A stretch of 64,000 nt of DNA, taken from Robiginitomaculum sp. (lineage in GTDB: Bacteria; Pseudomonadota; Alphaproteobacteria; Caulobacterales; Maricaulaceae). The notes beneath the pieces are model-generated. The model saw nothing but the letters and a program-made list of their open reading frames with translations, was not told the origin of the DNA and did no database searches. The stretch's first letter is position 1; the number at the start of each line of letters is the position of its first letter. Positions 32,365 through 42,048 of the stretch are shown piece by piece. The stretch lies in NCBI GenBank assembly GCA_030949705.1, contig JAUZSF010000019.1, positions 1 to 64,000 of the forward strand, given 5' to 3'. Both the position numbers and the translations under genes were made by a program.

Positions 32365-33980
32365 ATGAGAGCCAGTCTTGCCGCCTTTGCTGATCGCTTT
32401 TCCGCCTCCGGCTGGAAAGAACGCAGCCTGCGCGATTTTACCCCCAAGCGCATTCGTATCGAAGTGCTGGCCGGGTTAACCGTGGCGCTGGCACTGGTGC
32501 CCGAGGCGGTGGCCTTTGCCTTTGTCGCCGGTGTGCATCCGCTGGTGGGGCTGTATGCCGCCTTTCTGGTGGGCCTGATCACCGCCGTTTTGGGCGGCCA
32601 GCCGGGTATGATTTCCGGGGCGACCGGGGCGCTGGCCGTGGTGATGGTGGCGCTGGTTTCCGCCCATGGGGTGGAATACCTTTTTTGCCACCGTGGTGTT
32701 GATGGGCATTTTGCAAATACTGGCGGGCGTGTTCCGTCTGGGCAAACTGATCCGTCTGGTGCCACACCCGGTGATGCTGGGCTTTGTCAATGGCCTGGCC
32801 ATTGTCATTTTTCTGGCACAGCTCACGCAATTTCAGGTAGGACCCGAGGGCGACCGGCACTGGATGACCGGCCTGCCGCTGATCCTGACATTGGGTCTGG
32901 TCTTGCTGACCATGGGGATTATTTGGCTGGTGCCCAAAATCACCAATGCCATTCCCGCCCCGCTGGCCGGGATTGCGGTGGTGGCGGCCATCGTGATCGG
33001 CTTTGGACTGGAGGTTCCCCGGGTGGGGGATCTGGCCTCGATCAAAGGCGGCCTGCCCTCATTTCATCTGCCCATGGTGCCGCTGAACCTGGAAACCCTG
33101 GAGATCATTTTTCCCTATGCGATTATTCTAGCCGCCATTGGCCTGATCGAAAGCCTGTTGACGCTGAACCTGGTGGGCGAGATGACCGGCAAGCATAGCG
33201 GCGGGGCTTCGCGCGAATGTCTGGCCCAAGGCGTGGCCAATACGGTTACCGGATTTTTTTGGCGGCATGGGCGGTTGCGCCATGATCGGCCAGTCCATGA
33301 TCAATGTGAAATCCGGCGGGCGCACGCGCCTTTCCGCGCTGGCGGCGGCACTATTCCTTCTGAGTTTCATCCTGCTGGCTTCGGGCCTGATCGAACAGAT
33401 CCCGCTGGCCGCCCTTGTGGGCGTGATGTTCATGGTGGTGATCGGCACCTTTGCCTGGCAGAGCCTGCGCATTATGCAGCGCATTCCGCGTCTGGATGCG
33501 TTTGTCATTATTCTGGTGACCGCGGTCACCGTAAAATACGATCTGGCCACCGCCGTGGTGGTGGGGGTAATCGTTTCGGCACTGGCCTATGCGTGGAGCA
33601 ATGCCCGGCGCATCCATGCGGTGGTTCGTGAAAGCCACAGTGAAACCGGGGCCAAGGTTTATGAAATCGAAGGGCCGCTGTTTTTTGGTTCCACCGACGG
33701 TTTTGCCGAACTGTTTACCCCCGATGAAGACCCGGACGTAGTGATTGTGGATTTCATGAAATCCCGTGTGGTGGACCAGTCGGCTCTGCAGGCCATCGAG
33801 GCACTGGCCTCAAAATATGAAAAGCGCGGCAAGACCCTGCGCCTGCGCCATTTATCGCGCGATTGCCACAAACTGTTGAACCGCGCCGGTCAGTTAATGG
33901 TCGATTCCAATGATGACCCGGATTACGGCCTGGCAGTAGATTATTCGGTACGCACCGGCATTCTGGGCGGCGCGCACTAA
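32365..33980 (+). CDS. SulP-family anion transporter with STAS domain, two frameshifts
   Basis: SulP proteins move sulfate, bicarbonate or other anions across the inner membrane. The N-terminal signature is [20 protein letters not shown], followed by [19 protein letters not shown] string of hydrophobic helices continues to about 33640, and a cytoplasmic STAS domain ([30 protein letters not shown]) ends the protein. Three frames must be joined. T6 at 32681-32686 and T7 at 33254-33260 each carry one extra T, and removing both gives one uninterrupted ~537-residue protein. The stop overlaps the convergent TTL-like gene by 4 bases. The substrate is not known. Confidence 0.88.
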
Positions 33981-36373
33981 ACGCCCATTTCATCAGCCAG
34001 TTTTTGTGCCCCCACTATGGGATCAGAAAAAGCCAGCGTGTAGAGAGAAATCCCTTCCAGCCAGTCATTCAGCGCGCTGACCTGTGCGCCGGACAAATGC
34101 GCCCCTTGCGCGCCAATGGCCGAAACCAGTGCCCCATCCAGCGCCCGATGCAGGCTGGCCTTTTGCAGGTTTGCATCTTTGTCGGGTCCCCGTTCCATCA
34201 TGATCATGGCGCGCAACGTATATGGTTTTGGTTTTCCGTTCAGGGCGGCGGCCAACAAACGCCCCTGCCCCCCCGTTGACCAGTTTTGAAAACAAGATGG
34301 CGGCAGGGAATCCCCTTGAGTGCGAACTACCTCTTCATCATCGTCATGCAGCCGCACCGGCAGGCCCAGCGGCATTACCCGTTTGGGCTTTTTCGTATCC
34401 AGCACCATGCCGCCGCCATAACCGGCCTTGGCCAGCGCACTGAATGCCAATGGCAAGGCGTCCTCCCACCCGTTCATCCGGCCAGCGGCAAAAAACACCG
34501 CCTCGCTATCGTTGATCGGCACCAGGGTGCCGGCAATGGCAATATCGCTTTCTTTCAAGGGGGCCTGTTCAAAAAGCGCGCGGGAAACCACTTGGGCCAC
34601 ATTATCCAGCCCCAGCCCCGTGGTAATCAATTGTGACCCCACCGCCAGTGCATAGCCCACCGGCGCGTTTTGCACGGCGACATTCACCCCGGCCTGTTTT
34701 TTGGTTTTCAAAGGCGCAAAGAGCGGCCCAAGCCGGGCAGCCACCACGGCGCAGCCATACTCCAGGGTGATCGGGCATTTGCCGACCATGAGGGGGTCAG
34801 CGGACGGCGTTTCTAGTGCCTCTGTCCGTGATTTTTGCGGCTGATCCTGATCGCCGGTATCGCGGCGCAGCAGGCCCAATTGCGCCCAGCTGGACAAGGC
34901 GTCCCAGACGTTTTCACGGATCATCCATTGCTCGTCCTCACTGGGTGTGCCGTGGGCCGCCTCGTGCGCCGCAATCAGATCCTGGGCGATGCCTTGCGGG
35001 TCGGCACCATCGGCCACTTGCAGCCAGATCCAGCCCGACACCGGATTGGGGGTATAGAGCGTGCCGTTTTTTTCAAAATACAGCGCCAGTTCATCCTCGG
35101 AAACAATCTCGACGGTCTGGTTTGGGCACAAGCGTACCGGGCGCAATTCGCGGCCAAGAACGGCGCGGGCGCTGACCATATCGGCATAACGCGGCACCGG
35201 AAAAAATGTCAAATAATCCTCGACCGTCTCTTTGGCGGGGAACAGGCGCTGGAACCCACCGGCGCGGGCCATCTCATCGTCGATCTGGCGGGCTATGCGT
35301 TCGGCACGGTCCAGGCCGCTATAATCCGCAATTGGTGCATTCAGGCCCAGCAAGGACACCATATCGGCCACCATGGTCCGTTTGATAATGGTTTCGGTAT
35401 CGCCGCCATCTTCGGGCCCGGCACAAACCTCCAAAGACGGGCTGAGGTTACATTCCAGGATCCAGGGTTTGAGATCTGCATCCACCAGACAGTCCACCCC
35501 CAACAGCTCGTAACAGCCATTGGCCGGGGCCTTTTGTATATTGATGCGCTGGCGCATGCGTTCGCGCACGGCGATCACCGTCAGCGTGACCAGATCCCGG
35601 ATTTTGGCAAACAGCGCCTCATCATCATGGCCTGCATCGCGCAGCCATTGGCGGTATTCCCCCAGGCCGACAAACACCACCGGCGCATCGGCATCGGTAT
35701 TGGTGGCGTTAATATCCGGGTTGGTCAGATGGGCAAAAGGATTATCCGGGTCCTCTATATTATACGGCTCGGAGGCCAGCTTGGCGAAGCCCTCGCGATG
35801 CAGATAAAACCGCAATGGCTCGACCGAACTGATCAGCACATAAAGGCGCAGCACGTATTTGCGATCATTCATCACATGGGGGTTGTCGATATATTCCTGC
35901 ACCATCCAGGTGTTTTCCAGCGGAATATTGGCGATGTCCTGCACCACTTCGATTCCGCGCCCGCGGGACGAGTTCTTGGGTTTTAAAATCCAGCTCTTGT
36001 CCGGGTTTTGCACGGCACAGTGTTGCAGTTCATGAAAATCATCGGGCATGGCATACACCCGGGGGAAATAGTCCATGCGCGACCGGTTTTTGGGCGACGC
36101 CTGACGCGCCCGCGCCGCCTTTAGCGTCTCATAGAGATAATCCTTGATGGTCAAACCATTATTGCCGGGAATATGATTGATGGTTTTGGTGGTATCCAAT
36201 TGCTCGAACACATCGGGGTCGGGCATGCCGGTATACCAGCAGGTATCCCAGTTTTTTGCCGATCCCGGCTTCCAGATGGAAGTGTCCAGTGCCTCGACAA
36301 AAAAGACATCCTGACCCGGTTCACGATTGCCCGCCAGCCAGTATCGACGGTGTGGTTTTTTCCTGCGACCCAT
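33977..36373 (-). CDS. Tubulin-tyrosine-ligase-like ATP-grasp protein with PqqD-like and HprK-like domains
   Basis: A 798-residue protein from ATG 36373 (AAGGGA 5 bases upstream; the frame is open to 36436). Residues about 60-330 form a TTL domain. The ATP-grasp lysine segment WILKPKNSSRGRGIEVV is near 128-144, then MVQEYIDNPHVM, RKYVLRLYVL, YLHREGFAKLASEPYN and the metal-binding end CYELLGVDCLVDADLKPWI with LECNLSPSLEV near 287-316. All are hallmark TTL/TTLL motifs. Residues about 410-505 resemble PqqD, a peptide-recognition domain (ALYFEKNGTLYTPNPVSGWI, WDALSSWAQLGLL). The last ~290 residues resemble HprK-like kinases, but the P-loop place reads GRMNGWEDAL and looks degenerate. TTL enzymes ligate amino acids (Tyr, Glu or Gly) to proteins. 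It is divergent from a Glu-rich secreted cytochrome. Confidence 0.82.
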   Translation of the reverse strand: MGRRKKPHRRYWLAGNREPGQDVFFVEALDTSIWKPGSAKNWDTCWYTGMPDPDVFEQLDTTKTINHIPGNNGLTIKDYLYETLKAARARQASPKNRSRMDYFPRVYAMPDDFHELQHCAVQNPDKSWILKPKNSSRGRGIEVVQDIANIPLENTWMVQEYIDNPHVMNDRKYVLRLYVLISSVEPLRFYLHREGFAKLASEPYNIEDPDNPFAHLTNPDINATNTDADAPVVFVGLGEYRQWLRDAGHDDEALFAKIRDLVTLTVIAVRERMRQRINIQKAPANGCYELLGVDCLVDADLKPWILECNLSPSLEVCAGPEDGGDTETIIKRTMVADMVSLLGLNAPIADYSGLDRAERIARQIDDEMARAGGFQRLFPAKETVEDYLTFFPVPRYADMVSARAVLGRELRPVRLCPNQTVEIVSEDELALYFEKNGTLYTPNPVSGWIWLQVADGADPQGIAQDLIAAHEAAHGTPSEDEQWMIRENVWDALSSWAQLGLLRRDTGDQDQPQKSRTEALETPSADPLMVGKCPITLEYGCAVVAARLGPLFAPLKTKKQAGVNVAVQNAPVGYALAVGSQLITTGLGLDNVAQVVSRALFEQAPLKESDIAIAGTLVPINDSEAVFFAAGRMNGWEDALPLAFSALAKAGYGGGMVLDTKKPKRVMPLGLPVRLHDDDEEVVRTQGDSLPPSCFQNWSTGGQGRLLAAALNGKPKPYTLRAMIMMERGPDKDANLQKASLHRALDGALVSAIGAQGAHLSGAQVSALNDWLEGISLYTLAFSDPIVGAQKLADEMGV

Positions 36374-36620
36374 CCTGATCCCTTGTGCATTGCCCATGCC
36401 AGAATGAGCATGCTTAGGCCAGAGGATGTCAAGCACGCACCGCCGCGTTAGGCCGGAATGGGATGGCTCCTCTCGAAATTGTTACCTCTGCGAGATGACA
36501 AGTGTTTTGCTTCGCCATGGGCCTGTCCATAGCCTGCAAGGGTCGGGTGCCAAGGGTGCCCCACTTATTACTGCGTTTCCATATGCTGCCGCGGGCAGCC
36601 ATCATGCTAAGGGGAAAACC

Positions 36621-37337
36621 ATGCAAGACCGTCAGGAAAAACGCCAGAAACTGCTGAGAAATCTGGCCAAGGGCCTTTTGTACTCGACACCATTAATGGT
36701 GGCTGGTCTTGGCATCAGCCAGACGGCAAACGCGGAGACTGCCGCCTATGAACAGGCCTCTGGTGAAGCCGAAGGCGAAGCCAAAAAAGAGGCCCGCGGC
36801 GAAGGCGAGGCCGAAGCCAAAATGCACAAGGCCAAGGGGGAGGCCGAAGGCGGAGCCAAAGGGGAAGGCGAAGCCCGCATGATGAAGGCCAAAGGCGAGG
36901 CCAAGGGCGAAGCAGAAGGTGAAGCCAAAGGCGAGGCCGAAGGGGAGGCCAAAGGCGAGGCAGAGGGCGAAGCCGAAGGCAATCCCAGAGACATCAAACG
37001 CCCCATGTTTTCCAAAAAATATAAAGGGGATCGCAGTCAGCTGGTCGCTCGCGGCAAAGAGCTTTATGGCGACTCATCGCTTTCCACCAATGGCTTGAAC
37101 TGCAATAGCTGTCATACTGACATGGCCGGTTATAACGACACTTTCAAACAGCCCTACCCGCACTATGTGGCGATGGGCAAAGACATTTATGGCCAGAAAA
37201 AACTGACCGCCGAATCCATGGTACAGGTTTGCATGCAGCAACCCATGGAGGCCAAACCCCTGCCCTGGGATTCCGAAGAACTGGCCGCCCTGACAGCCTA
37301 TGTCGAGGTATTGCAAAAAGAATATGCCGCAAAATAG
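36621..37337 (+). CDS. Secreted c-type cytochrome with a Glu/Gly/Ala/Lys-rich repeat domain
   Basis: A 238-residue protein. ATG 36621 has AGGGG 7 bases upstream. A twin-basic N-region, a hydrophobic stretch and ANA near residue 38 form a likely Sec signal peptide. Residues about 48-120 are a low-complexity repeat of GEAEGEAK-type units with some 30 glutamates. A single haem motif CNSCH lies at 161-165, within a small cytochrome c domain that has further Met and His residues downstream, so the axial ligand is not certain. The gene is divergent from the TTL-like ligase, with 247 bases between starts, and is followed by another cytochrome c. The repeat may be a substrate tail for the ligase; that is inference. 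Confidence 0.85.
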   Translation: MQDRQEKRQKLLRNLAKGLLYSTPLMVAGLGISQTANAETAAYEQASGEAEGEAKKEARGEGEAEAKMHKAKGEAEGGAKGEGEARMMKAKGEAKGEAEGEAKGEAEGEAKGEAEGEAEGNPRDIKRPMFSKKYKGDRSQLVARGKELYGDSSLSTNGLNCNSCHTDMAGYNDTFKQPYPHYVAMGKDIYGQKKLTAESMVQVCMQQPMEAKPLPWDSEELAALTAYVEVLQKEYAAK

Positions 37338-37393: not shown

Positions 37394-37485
37394 TAATGGT
37401 TTATACAGGGCATGGGGAAATGGTGCCAAGGCACCATAAGAGATTGCAAATTGCGAGCCTGCCTCGCCAGTATAAGGAAAACACT

Positions 37486-37869
37486 ATGCGTACATCATCT
37501 CTTTTGCTCATCGGCAGCGCCTTGGCACTGACCATCAATGCCGGGGCCGCCATGGCTGATACCGCCGCCGGTGAAGCGGTATTTAAAAAGTGCCGGGTTT
37601 GCCATTCAAATGTTGAGGGCAAAAAGAAAGTCGGTCCCAGCCTGTATGGAGTGGTTGGCCGCACGCCAGGCACGCTGGAAGGCTATAAATACAGCGAAGC
37701 CATGAAAGCCTTTGGGGCCAGCGGTGCCGTCTGGGATGCCAAAACCCTGGACACCTATCTGATGCAACCCCGGGCGTTGATCGCCAAAACCAAAATGATG
37801 TTCCCCGGCCTGAAAAAAGAGGCCGACCGCAAGGCCGTCATTGAATATCTGGACAGTCTGGACGACTAG
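37486..37869 (+). CDS. Periplasmic class I cytochrome c
   Basis: A 127-residue protein with a signal peptide ([20 protein letters not shown], cleavage after AMA near residue 24), a haem-binding [19 protein letters not shown], and a probable Met axial ligand in TKMMFPGL. It has the layout of soluble electron carriers of the cytochrome c2/c550 type, here about 100 residues when mature. ATG 37486 has AAGGA upstream; the open frame extends to 37357. It follows the Glu-rich cytochrome on the same strand after a hairpin. Its stop overlaps the convergent murA stop. Confidence 0.92.
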
Positions 37870-39906: not shown

Positions 39907-40668
39907 TCAGCCGGTTTTTTTGCGCGAAGCCACAGGCCAATAGCCCGACAGGATCCGTTCGCCGGTTTTGCCATTTTCCACTTCTTCCTGCACCCGCGCC
40001 CCAATCCCGGAAAGATTGTTATTATGCATGCGATAGCAAAAAAGTGGTTCGGGGATATATACGCCGGTCCAGCCATTGGCGATAATCCGGCACCATTTGT
40101 CCTGTTTGGTGCCCTTGCGCACACTTTCATCAAACGGGGCCACCTGTTTCATGGCTTCCATCAACACCAGAGCGGGCTCGGGGATATAGCTGAGCGTGCG
40201 GATCAGGTCCGCATCAAAGGGGGCCGAACGCCCCCGTTCGAGAAATTCGCCTTCGGCGGAAATTAGATGGCAGTCCATATAGACAAAACCGACCTTTTTG
40301 TCTTCGCTGCGGGCGCGCTCCAGCACCGCTAGGCATCGGACAATATGATTGTCCATCAGATAGTCATCAGAATCCAGAAGCAGGCAATACTGGCCACTCA
40401 CCACTTCCATGGCACGGTTCACCGCCGCCACTTTACCGGCATTTTTTTCCATCTCGATCAGGGAAATATCCAGCTTGCTTTTATAAGACTCGATCAGGTC
40501 CTTGATGACTTCCACGGAATTATCCGAGCTGGCATCATCAACAATGACAATTTCCAAAGGGGAATAGTCCTGCCGCGACAGGCTGGCAATGGTTTCACCA
40601 ATAAACTGGCCGTAATTATGGTTAGGAATGATAACCGATAATAGGACCGGCGTTGTTGCACCACTCAT
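39907..40668 (-). CDS. Family 2 glycosyltransferase
   Basis: A 253-residue GT-A-fold glycosyltransferase. The N-terminal strand LLSVIIPNHNYGQFI, the nucleotide-binding VIVDDASSDNSVEVI and the metal-binding LLLDSDDYLMD (DxD type) are visible. It would transfer a sugar from a nucleotide sugar to a cell-surface glycan or lipid; donor and acceptor are unknown. ATG 40668 is used; the frame begins two codons earlier at a TTG. It is followed upstream on the same strand, after 16 bases, by a sulfotransferase gene, suggesting joint work on a surface saccharide. Confidence 0.88.
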   Translation of the reverse strand: MSGATTPVLLSVIIPNHNYGQFIGETIASLSRQDYSPLEIVIVDDASSDNSVEVIKDLIESYKSKLDISLIEMEKNAGKVAAVNRAMEVVSGQYCLLLDSDDYLMDNHIVRCLAVLERARSEDKKVGFVYMDCHLISAEGEFLERGRSAPFDADLIRTLSYIPEPALVLMEAMKQVAPFDESVRKGTKQDKWCRIIANGWTGVYIPEPLFCYRMHNNNLSGIGARVQEEVENGKTGERILSGYWPVASRKKTG

Positions 40669-40684
40669 AGACAATACCCACTTT

Positions 40685-41824
40685 TCAACTTACGGCCCCT
40701 CGGGAACTCAATTCATCACCCCCGAAAAGGGTTTTTGGAGCCGCTCGTAATCGCCCAAGCAGCGCCTTTGTAATGCGCTCTATTTGTATTCTATCCTTCA
40801 CAGAAACAGCAGCCTGCTTAGCGCTGCCATCGCTTTGGAAGGTGCTCGTATCAGAATCATCCTTTGAATGGAAGCGAAACTGTGTACACATTTCAGCGAT
40901 CACCTGTTCATCCGGCACAAAGGAAAACCCTGACTTTAAAACCTGCCCCAATGTATCGGGTCTTAGGTTATGATAGTCTAAAGCCTTCACATTAACTAAT
41001 GAAGAATCCAGTATCACTTTGAAATAATTGTTATAACAGTTCGCCAGATAGCTGACGTCATCCATTTTTTGCACTTGCGCGGGGCTTTTACCGGTCAAAA
41101 AACTGGCCTGGGGCCAGTCTTTGGCTACCAGCACGGCGGTGGTTTCCTTGATCACCGAGGCGATCACTTCCACCGGATCGCGAAAAAGAAACAGGCTGTG
41201 CACTTCGGGAAAGGCCCGCGCGATAAAGTCCAGATACAGCGTGTTCCAGCTGATGAATTTAACAAAACTGGTGGTTTCCGTACCCAGGCGCGGCCGGGTC
41301 AGCGCGAACACCAGATTGCGAAATTTCTTCACCGTAAGCGCATCACCAGGCATTTCGCTTTGCCAGTCATGGGTCATGGCAGCCCAAAAGCCGCGCTGTA
41401 AGGGCCCGCCCTGATTGACCACACAGTGGGCGGGAATTCTGGCCAAAGCCTTGCCGAGCAGGGTCGAACCACATCGCGAGGTATGGAAAATGAAGCCCGA
41501 CGGCATTAGCGCATCTTCTATCAGATCATCCACCTCCAGCACCCGCATCGACGTGGCAAAGGCGGTGGAAATCATATCCGCCTGGGCAAGACGCTCGATG
41601 GTGAACAAGTGCTGCCAGTCCCGATAGGCATGGGTACCAATATCCACCCAATATACCTTGCTGACCTGTCCGGGGGTGCTGGCCGGCTCGATCGCGGCCG
41701 GAATAAGGCCTGCATTGGCACGAATACGCGAAATGGCTTCATCATCTGACACAAGCGCGTCAAAACGGCCCGGCAAAAGCCGCCCTACGACCTCATGGTC
41801 TGGCAAGGCATAAATCGGCACCAT
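40685..41824 (-). CDS. Sulfotransferase family protein
   Basis: A 379-residue protein. The 5'-phosphosulfate-binding loop is seen in GFIFHTSRCGSTLLGKAL and the 3'-phosphate-binding segment in VHSLFLFRDPVEVIASV. These are the PAPS sites of carbohydrate-type sulfotransferases. The N-terminal ~110 residues are not recognised. ATG 41824 is chosen over an upstream TTG at 41833. It is paired with the glycosyltransferase, so sulfation of a surface glycan is plausible. Local base composition is slightly more AT-rich than neighbours in its C-terminal third. Confidence 0.85.
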   Translation of the reverse strand: MVPIYALPDHEVVGRLLPGRFDALVSDDEAISRIRANAGLIPAAIEPASTPGQVSKVYWVDIGTHAYRDWQHLFTIERLAQADMISTAFATSMRVLEVDDLIEDALMPSGFIFHTSRCGSTLLGKALARIPAHCVVNQGGPLQRGFWAAMTHDWQSEMPGDALTVKKFRNLVFALTRPRLGTETTSFVKFISWNTLYLDFIARAFPEVHSLFLFRDPVEVIASVIKETTAVLVAKDWPQASFLTGKSPAQVQKMDDVSYLANCYNNYFKVILDSSLVNVKALDYHNLRPDTLGQVLKSGFSFVPDEQVIAEMCTQFRFHSKDDSDTSTFQSDGSAKQAAVSVKDRIQIERITKALLGRLRAAPKTLFGGDELSSRGAVS

Positions 41825-42048
41825 TTTGAACAACCACCCCGGCAGTTATATCTTTATGCAGGCTTATATACACGTTCAGGCCCGCCTTTCGTACCCATAA
41901 CCTATAGCGGGACAAACGCAAAGTCCTTGCGCCAGTACGGCGAAGTTCAGGTAAAGGCTTCCCCCTCATGCAGCTTTTCCTTGCACGAACCTTCGGGGTT
42001 TGACACTTTGCGCGCAAATTCACAGTCCCTGTCCTTTGGAGTTCTGTT

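Follow-up and report, generated by a model that had tools for sequence, protein, structure and literature searches.

A TTLL-type ligase with an RRE domain and its leader-bearing, glutamate-rich partners suggest an undescribed protein-tagging system in bacteria

Introduction

Eukaryotic glutamylases of the TTLL type use glutamate tracts with small spacer residues as acceptor regions, much like the bacterial tracts described below. One of them, TTLL5, glutamylates the Glu-Gly repeats of RPGR, which have been likened to tubulin tails, and a separate domain finds this non-tubulin substrate, as we propose here for a bacterial enzyme (PMC13052805). In bacteria, the addition of glutamate to a protein by an ATP-grasp enzyme is known from RimK, which acts on ribosomal S6 (PMC4431377).

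Closest to the recognition side of the present system are RRE-containing RiPP clusters. In paeninodin-like lasso and linear polyphosphorylated peptide (LPP) clusters, RREs are accompanied by HprK-like kinases, and YxxPx[L/V/I/F/A] is the motif that discrete lasso RREs recognize (PMC13381572). RRE-associated precursors with Sec signal peptides are described for the MNIO (DUF2063/DUF2282, bufferin-type) RiPPs, in whose leaders no specific RRE motif was seen (PMC12710340).

Here, we describe a locus of Robiginitomaculum sp. in which a TTLL-type ligase carries a PqqD/RRE domain and an HprK-type fold, and stands next to a gene for an exported-type protein with a leader and a glutamate tract. We then follow ligase and partner through their relatives and weigh what the pair may do.

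Results

The window analyzed here is a stretch of 64,000 nucleotides (GCA_030949705.1, contig JAUZSF010000019.1, positions 1 to 64,000), and the features of interest are collected in Table 1. An earlier note on this DNA had recognized eukaryotic-type TTL motifs in the 798-residue protein, and this reading was borne out: Pfam TTL (PF03133) matched the ligase at E = 1.5e-56, with 192.2 bits against a cut-off of 20.1, while an NCBIfam scan of the ligase returned no model at or above its cut-off. An AlphaFold2 model, built with an alignment of 58 of the 81 sequences, had a mean pLDDT of 89.6. When this model was compared with the PDB by Foldseek, TTLL6 came out on top (E ~1e-29, TM by target up to 0.83, 24% identity), followed by TTLL7, TTLL11 and then TTL (~1e-17). 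A family profile run against PDB sequences likewise ranked wild-type TTLL6 first (1.7e-62, matched over profile positions 33-396, which correspond to protein residues to within a few residues' offset), ahead of TTLL7 (2e-53), TTLL11 (6.9e-31), 5vlq (2.8e-18) and TTL (~1e-15). The PDB listing names 5vlq only as LOC100158544; we take it to be the glycylase TTLL3. A crystal structure of TTLL3 exists (reference in PMC12340829). Thus, membership in the TTL family stands, but the ligase is closer to TTLL6 and TTLL7 than to TTL itself.

Table 1. Coordinates of the ligase, its proposed substrate and adjoining features in the window
Feature	Position	Strand	Basis
TTLL-RRE-pseudo-HprK ligase, 798 aa plus stop	33977..36373	-	
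TTLL-type ATP-grasp ligase region, ~residues 33-396	35186..36277	-	Pfam TTL, family profile vs TTLL6, Foldseek
PqqD/RRE domain, residues 408-508	34850..35152	-	PF05402, TbiB1/TfuB1 matches
PEPCK/HprK-fold domain without Walker A, residues 520-798	33980..34816	-	
Divergent intergenic region, 247 bp	36374..36620	.	
Leader + Glu tract + SoxA/TsdA-like cytochrome c, 238 aa, proposed substrate	36621..37337	+	leader profile, Pfam SoxA-TsdA_cyt-c
Leader / putative signal peptide with YSTPLM (YxxPx[LM])	36621..36737	+	leader profile match E 1.7e-16
Alternating Glu-Gly/Ala/Lys tract, proposed acceptor	36762..36980	+	sequence; composition and alternation across all tracts
Heme-binding CNSCH	37101..37115	+	sequence
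Small cytochrome c550-like protein, downstream of tract cytochrome	37483..37869	+	

The catalytic residues of TTL-family ATP-grasp enzymes (basic residues, Asp and ExN) are present in the ligase. We compared 79 sequences, i.e., the window protein and 78 of its 80 relatives (L042 and L077 were excluded at <550 aa; L024 and L035 are incomplete), and found K131, Q159, K172, R176, LTN 216-218, D294, E307 and N309 to be identical in all 79. The one departure is the Asp of the KFDxR motif, present in TTLL6 and TTLL7 and replaced by Val in 79/79 family members; with this exception, the active-site conservation on which the earlier note had staked its reading held throughout. The predicted activity is the ligation of an amino acid to protein.

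Within the window's genome (G000, a 2.83-Mb assembly, 91.9% complete), the ligase is the sole TTL match. The idea that TTL is common in bacteria was dropped: PF03133 matched in 45 of 299 genomes, but a near-complete domain (E ~1e-56) was found only in the window's genome and in G334, the remaining listed matches being partial and weak. We also discarded the notion of a phage or plasmid module, as the ligase had no plasmid match and only partial phage similarity (residues 68-315, 24%). The phage matches are two records of a single uncultured phage; in the 735-kb record LR756501.1, a TTL-like stretch at 662309-663019 is 24% identical to ligase residues 68-315.

Two neighboring regions of the window are recorded for completeness. 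A SulP-type sulfate permease gene (32365-33977, plus strand) adjoins the ligase and is broken across three reading frames; because its pieces are 94-96% identical to a single intact 537-aa relative in locus L003, the frameshifts are either recent or assembly errors. Approximately 2 kb past the cytochromes, on the minus strand, lie adjacent genes for a sulfotransferase-like protein (40685-41833; 24.9 bits in Pfam, under the cut-off of 27) and a GT2 glycosyltransferase (39907-40674).

The two remaining domains of the ligase had also been proposed from motifs, and both assignments held. PqqD (PF05402) was matched in 54 of 55 homologues; Pfam on the window ligase alone gave a weak match. When a profile of the RRE region, aligned from 55 of 58 segments, was compared with the PDB, the nearest solved relatives were the lasso RREs TbiB1 (3.3e-6) and TfuB1 (4.4e-5), with no others below E = 0.1. 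The C-terminal domain has the PEPCK/HprK fold, and its P-loop, described earlier as degenerate, proved to lack Walker A, which was found in 0 of the 41 sequences with more than 230 aa of that domain. An active HprK kinase was therefore rejected, and we do not assign this domain as a kinase.

We then turned to the surroundings of the ligase in 81 loci, comprising the window and 80 of 88 ligase relatives, which come from Robiginitomaculum, other Alphaproteobacteria, Halomonas and its relatives, Marinobacter and a few others. Clustering of the neighbors gave one recurrent partner type, in which a Glu/Gly/Ala tract comes after an N-terminal leader; a further cluster, c18, was set aside as consisting, by appearance, mostly of antisense frames of tract genes. 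With a leader profile whose 13 seed sequences came from these loci, we detected 103 such ORFs in 75 of the 81 loci, so that Glu-rich cytochromes or short acidic peptides do recur beside the ligase, a point that the earlier note had proposed to check. The leader gene starts within 1.5 kb of the ligase in 73 loci, at a median distance of 131 bp (82 genes), and lies farther away in L015 and L078. Among the loci missed by the profile, L027 and L055 have a leader-tract ORF that was found by eye, the sequence of L035 stops within the ligase, and that of L077 is a contig of 3 kb; in L022 and L023, the ligase is present and neither profile nor eye found a partner in the fetched DNA. This leaves four loci in which profile and eye gave no leader-tract gene, two of them at contig ends.

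Three arrangements occur within 1.5 kb. In 13 loci, one of them the window, a cytochrome-type gene diverges from the ligase; 57 loci carry short genes downstream in the direction of the ligase (60 genes in total), and three loci have convergent short genes. Given the 60 downstream short genes against 13 divergent cytochromes, we abandoned the view that the cytochrome is the conserved partner. The link to a Glu-rich neighbor proposed for the window survives, but the constant element is the leader with its Glu tract, not the cytochrome: of the 103 leader ORFs, only 35 belong to the cytochrome type, each of them with CxxCH and CM..PM, and the other 68 fall outside it.

Other neighbors were noted as well. 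In 46 of the 81 loci, which include none from Robiginitomaculum, the ligase and short tract gene are followed by a gene for a DinB-family protein (cluster c3; e.g., L013 12746-13405 and L030 12972-13547), and four Marinobacter loci (L013, L014, L017 and L075) also have a TANGO2/NRDE-like protein. A cytochrome c550-like cluster (c23) occurs in 11 of 81 loci, all alphaproteobacterial; the window copy stands behind the tract cytochrome.

The partner family thus consists of exported-type proteins that share the leader xxRxxLLxxLSRxxxYxxPxLxxVA. Behind it comes a tract with E-[A/G]-E alternation, and the proteins occur as free peptides, as lipoprotein-like forms, or with the tract fused to a SoxA/TsdA-like cytochrome c (in the window, Pfam SoxA-TsdA_cyt-c at 36 bits against a cut-off of 27). 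NCBIfam gave no model at cut-off for three leader-tract proteins scanned. The Pro of the central leader stretch is present in 103/103 leaders, with Tyr at -3 in 80 and Leu or Met at +2 in 91. YxxPx[LMIFV] was found in 81 of 103 leaders, compared to 1% of shuffled leaders; the 22 without it include His and Val variants. Together, this motif and the nearest relatives of the RRE domain constitute concordant evidence from separate data. Read by eye, the leader is signal-peptide-like and has AxA-like ends, and in four further loci, L114-L117, it leads into a lipobox-like LLLAGC or LLLAAC, which gives these products the look of lipoproteins. Since the signal-peptide-like leader also bears the lasso-type YxxPxL, recognition and export seem to share one segment. 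One genome, G179, has two ligase genes (contigs C5 and C7; L113 and L114), each accompanied by a tract protein of its own; one of these proteins is plain signal-like, the other lipobox-bearing.

After the leader, at least nine Glu follow in 101 of the 103 ORFs, the exceptions being an ORF cut at the locus end (L034) and one with seven Glu (L058). Taking as tract the stretch from the leader to the heme domain or ORF end, we observed E[AG]E 1352 times, where shuffling gave 265 (sd 15), and EE 43 times, where shuffling gave 617 (sd 18). Some of this alternation could stem from tandem DNA expansion.

To what part of the tract an amino acid might be joined is hinted at by engineered TTLL6. In TTLL6, Q180 decides elongation over initiation, with Arg at 180 favoring gamma linkage (PMC7970040, PMC12366701), and H362 likewise sets elongation over initiation (PMC7970040). 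PDB entries 6vzq, 6vzr and 6vzs are of engineered TTLL6, whose aligned region differs from the wild type in CQ to AR and H to I. At the three engineered sites, the 79 bacterial sequences have S (71) or A (8) at the first, K (49) or R (30) at the second, homologous to Q180, and L (79) at the third, the H362 site; the window ligase has the initiation-type S136/R137/L310. In sequence, then, the ligase is basic and aliphatic at the sites where changes in TTLL6 variants favor gamma-linked initiation, a resemblance that points to side-chain branching. This signature is suggestive only, since the bifunctional TTLL7 has M and R there and does not share the Arg/Ile pattern, and 49 of the 79 bacterial members carry Lys instead of Arg.

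Evidence of this kind also bears on the possibility that the same enzyme and substrates are joined by a different chemistry, with glycine, alanine or another donor, or with addition at the C-terminus, as by TTL and TTLL11, in place of side chains. The TTL family does include glycylases and C-terminus-extending enzymes (PMC12340829, PMC12366701, PMC11574253), and 36 of the 68 short ORFs end in Gly, 24 of them in Glu-Gly. However, in the 35 cytochrome-type ORFs, the tract precedes the heme domain and nearly all have an ordinary cytochrome C-terminus (that of L009 has a second short acidic tail), and the site residues are initiation-like. Moreover, the glutamylases TTLL6, TTLL7 and TTLL11 score far above 5vlq, the presumed glycylase, and the donor therefore leans toward glutamate. 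We consider a different donor or C-terminal addition unlikely.

To what extent ligase and leader travel together was assessed in genome samples. In the window's order, the ligase is present in 7 of 200 genomes (eight genes), and a leader match (E <= 0.01) lies within ~0.7 kb of all eight, while 7 of the 193 ligase-free genomes have leader matches, all at E 0.001-0.01 (Fisher p 1.5e-9, with genomes treated as independent and kinship ignored). The leader alignment (A2) was built from ligase-adjacent loci, with G000, G014, G134 and G179 contig 5 standing behind its rows; the other four ligase genes (G020, G184, G199 and G179 contig 7) are independent because they are not in it. Leader matches at these four are weaker (E 3.9e-5 to 6.3e-3), yet adjacent and acidic-tailed; two of them (E 2.2e-3 and 6.3e-3) are within the background range, and it is their position and acidic tail alone that make them convincing. 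Among 244 genomes from the order of G334, 2 carry the ligase, with two leader genes each within ~5.5 kb, and at E <= 0.001, a leader match was seen in one ligase-free genome (G252, 6.5e-4). A phylum sample had the ligase in 3 of 398 genomes. A search of 200 genomes for tract-free orthologues of the cytochrome, which would serve as a natural control, found none; strong matches to the cytochrome domain occurred in 3 of the 200, all ligase-bearing, and G145 had a weak match with 33% identity.

It could be argued that the ligase acts on some other protein, a cofactor or a metabolite, the leader-tract proteins being carriers or partners and not acceptors. ATP-grasp ligases make small molecules too (PMC4431377), and L022 and L023 have the ligase without nearby tract proteins. 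Against this stand the close linkage of the ligase to a single leader family and their joint occurrence, as well as the RRE in the ligase and the lasso-type motif in that very leader, and we regard a target outside the tract family as improbable. That the tract is a halophile-type low-complexity expansion, linked to the ligase by shared operon ancestry without enzymatic relation, is hardly credible: the tract is repetitive, and Halomonas, Marinobacter and similar genera, which are marine or halophilic, account for many of the loci, but alpha- and gammaproteobacterial loci with differing gene order and fused domains keep the same leader and tract, and ligase and leader are absent together in the same-genus genomes G004 and G268.

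Discussion

The data establish the domain identities, the conservation of the catalytic residues and a leader common to the partners, along with the tight linkage and co-occurrence of ligase and partner. In the reading that we favor and hold to be probable, the RRE guides a TTLL-type ligase that, before export, attaches an amino acid, probably glutamate, as a branch to internal Glu residues of the tract. The binding of the leader, the donor, the type of linkage, the timing and the physiological role are what we infer, as follows. In the cytoplasm, the RRE would bind the leader of the substrate at its YxxPxL segment and so deliver the E-[A/G]-E tract behind it to the ATP-grasp site. At this site, an internal Glu would have its side-chain gamma-carboxylate activated as an acyl phosphate, which is the general ATP-grasp mechanism, and an amino acid, most probably glutamate as judged from the TTLL6-like fold and S136/R137/L310, would be joined as a gamma-linked branch. 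The pseudo-HprK domain may serve as a non-catalytic scaffold or second docking surface. The modified precursor would then be exported and its leader cut by signal peptidase, so that the product outside the cytoplasm would be hyper-acidic, be it a peptide, a lipoprotein or a cytochrome c. As to its role, we can offer guesses: extracytoplasmic electron transfer, electrostatic docking of the cytochrome, metal binding, or a charged surface in salt.

Together, ligase and tract substrates suggest an undescribed bacterial protein-tagging system. No prior description of it was found in the openly licensed literature, which leaves subscription work, e.g., amidoligase surveys, outside the scope of that search; in the main text of a study covering RRE fusions (PMC12710340), the terms "tubulin" and "TTL" do not occur. 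The ligase system combines a PqqD/RRE domain with a linked precursor that has a conserved leader and a variable core, all of them RiPP criteria. Whether it amounts to a new RiPP-like class, in which a TTLL-type glutamylase with a lasso-type RRE reads the signal peptide itself and places gamma-glutamyl branches on tracts that resemble tubulin tails in exported peptides, lipoproteins and cytochromes c, is in our judgment evenly balanced. If true, bacteria would own TTLL-type side-chain ligation with dedicated substrates and a guidance domain, a counterpart of the eukaryotic tubulin/RPGR glutamylation code. It would also provide a small genetic system for studying acceptor-Glu choice by TTLL enzymes and the origin of the eukaryotic family, would extend the RiPP repertoire by a modification, and would give an example of a signal peptide as the target of an RRE.

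With the eukaryotic enzymes TTLL6, TTLL7 and TTLL5 (with RPGR), the bacterial ligase shares the TTL catalytic domain and motifs, and its best structural match is among them. It differs in the PqqD/RRE domain proposed to find the substrate in place of a cMTBD or CID, in its exported-type substrates, and in the Val that replaces Asp in KFDxR. With the lasso and LPP systems, it has in common an RRE of the TbiB1/TfuB1 type, a leader motif of the YxxPx[L/V/I/F/A] type and the pairing of an RRE with an HprK-type domain; in contrast to these, the enzyme here is a ligase, the HprK-type domain is without Walker A, and the leader is signal-peptide-like. The MNIO RiPPs have a different enzyme and different modified residues, while RimK belongs to a different ATP-grasp family and is not known to have an RRE or leader. 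Compared to these known systems, the one described here joins a known enzyme family and a known RiPP-type recognition to a new substrate architecture.
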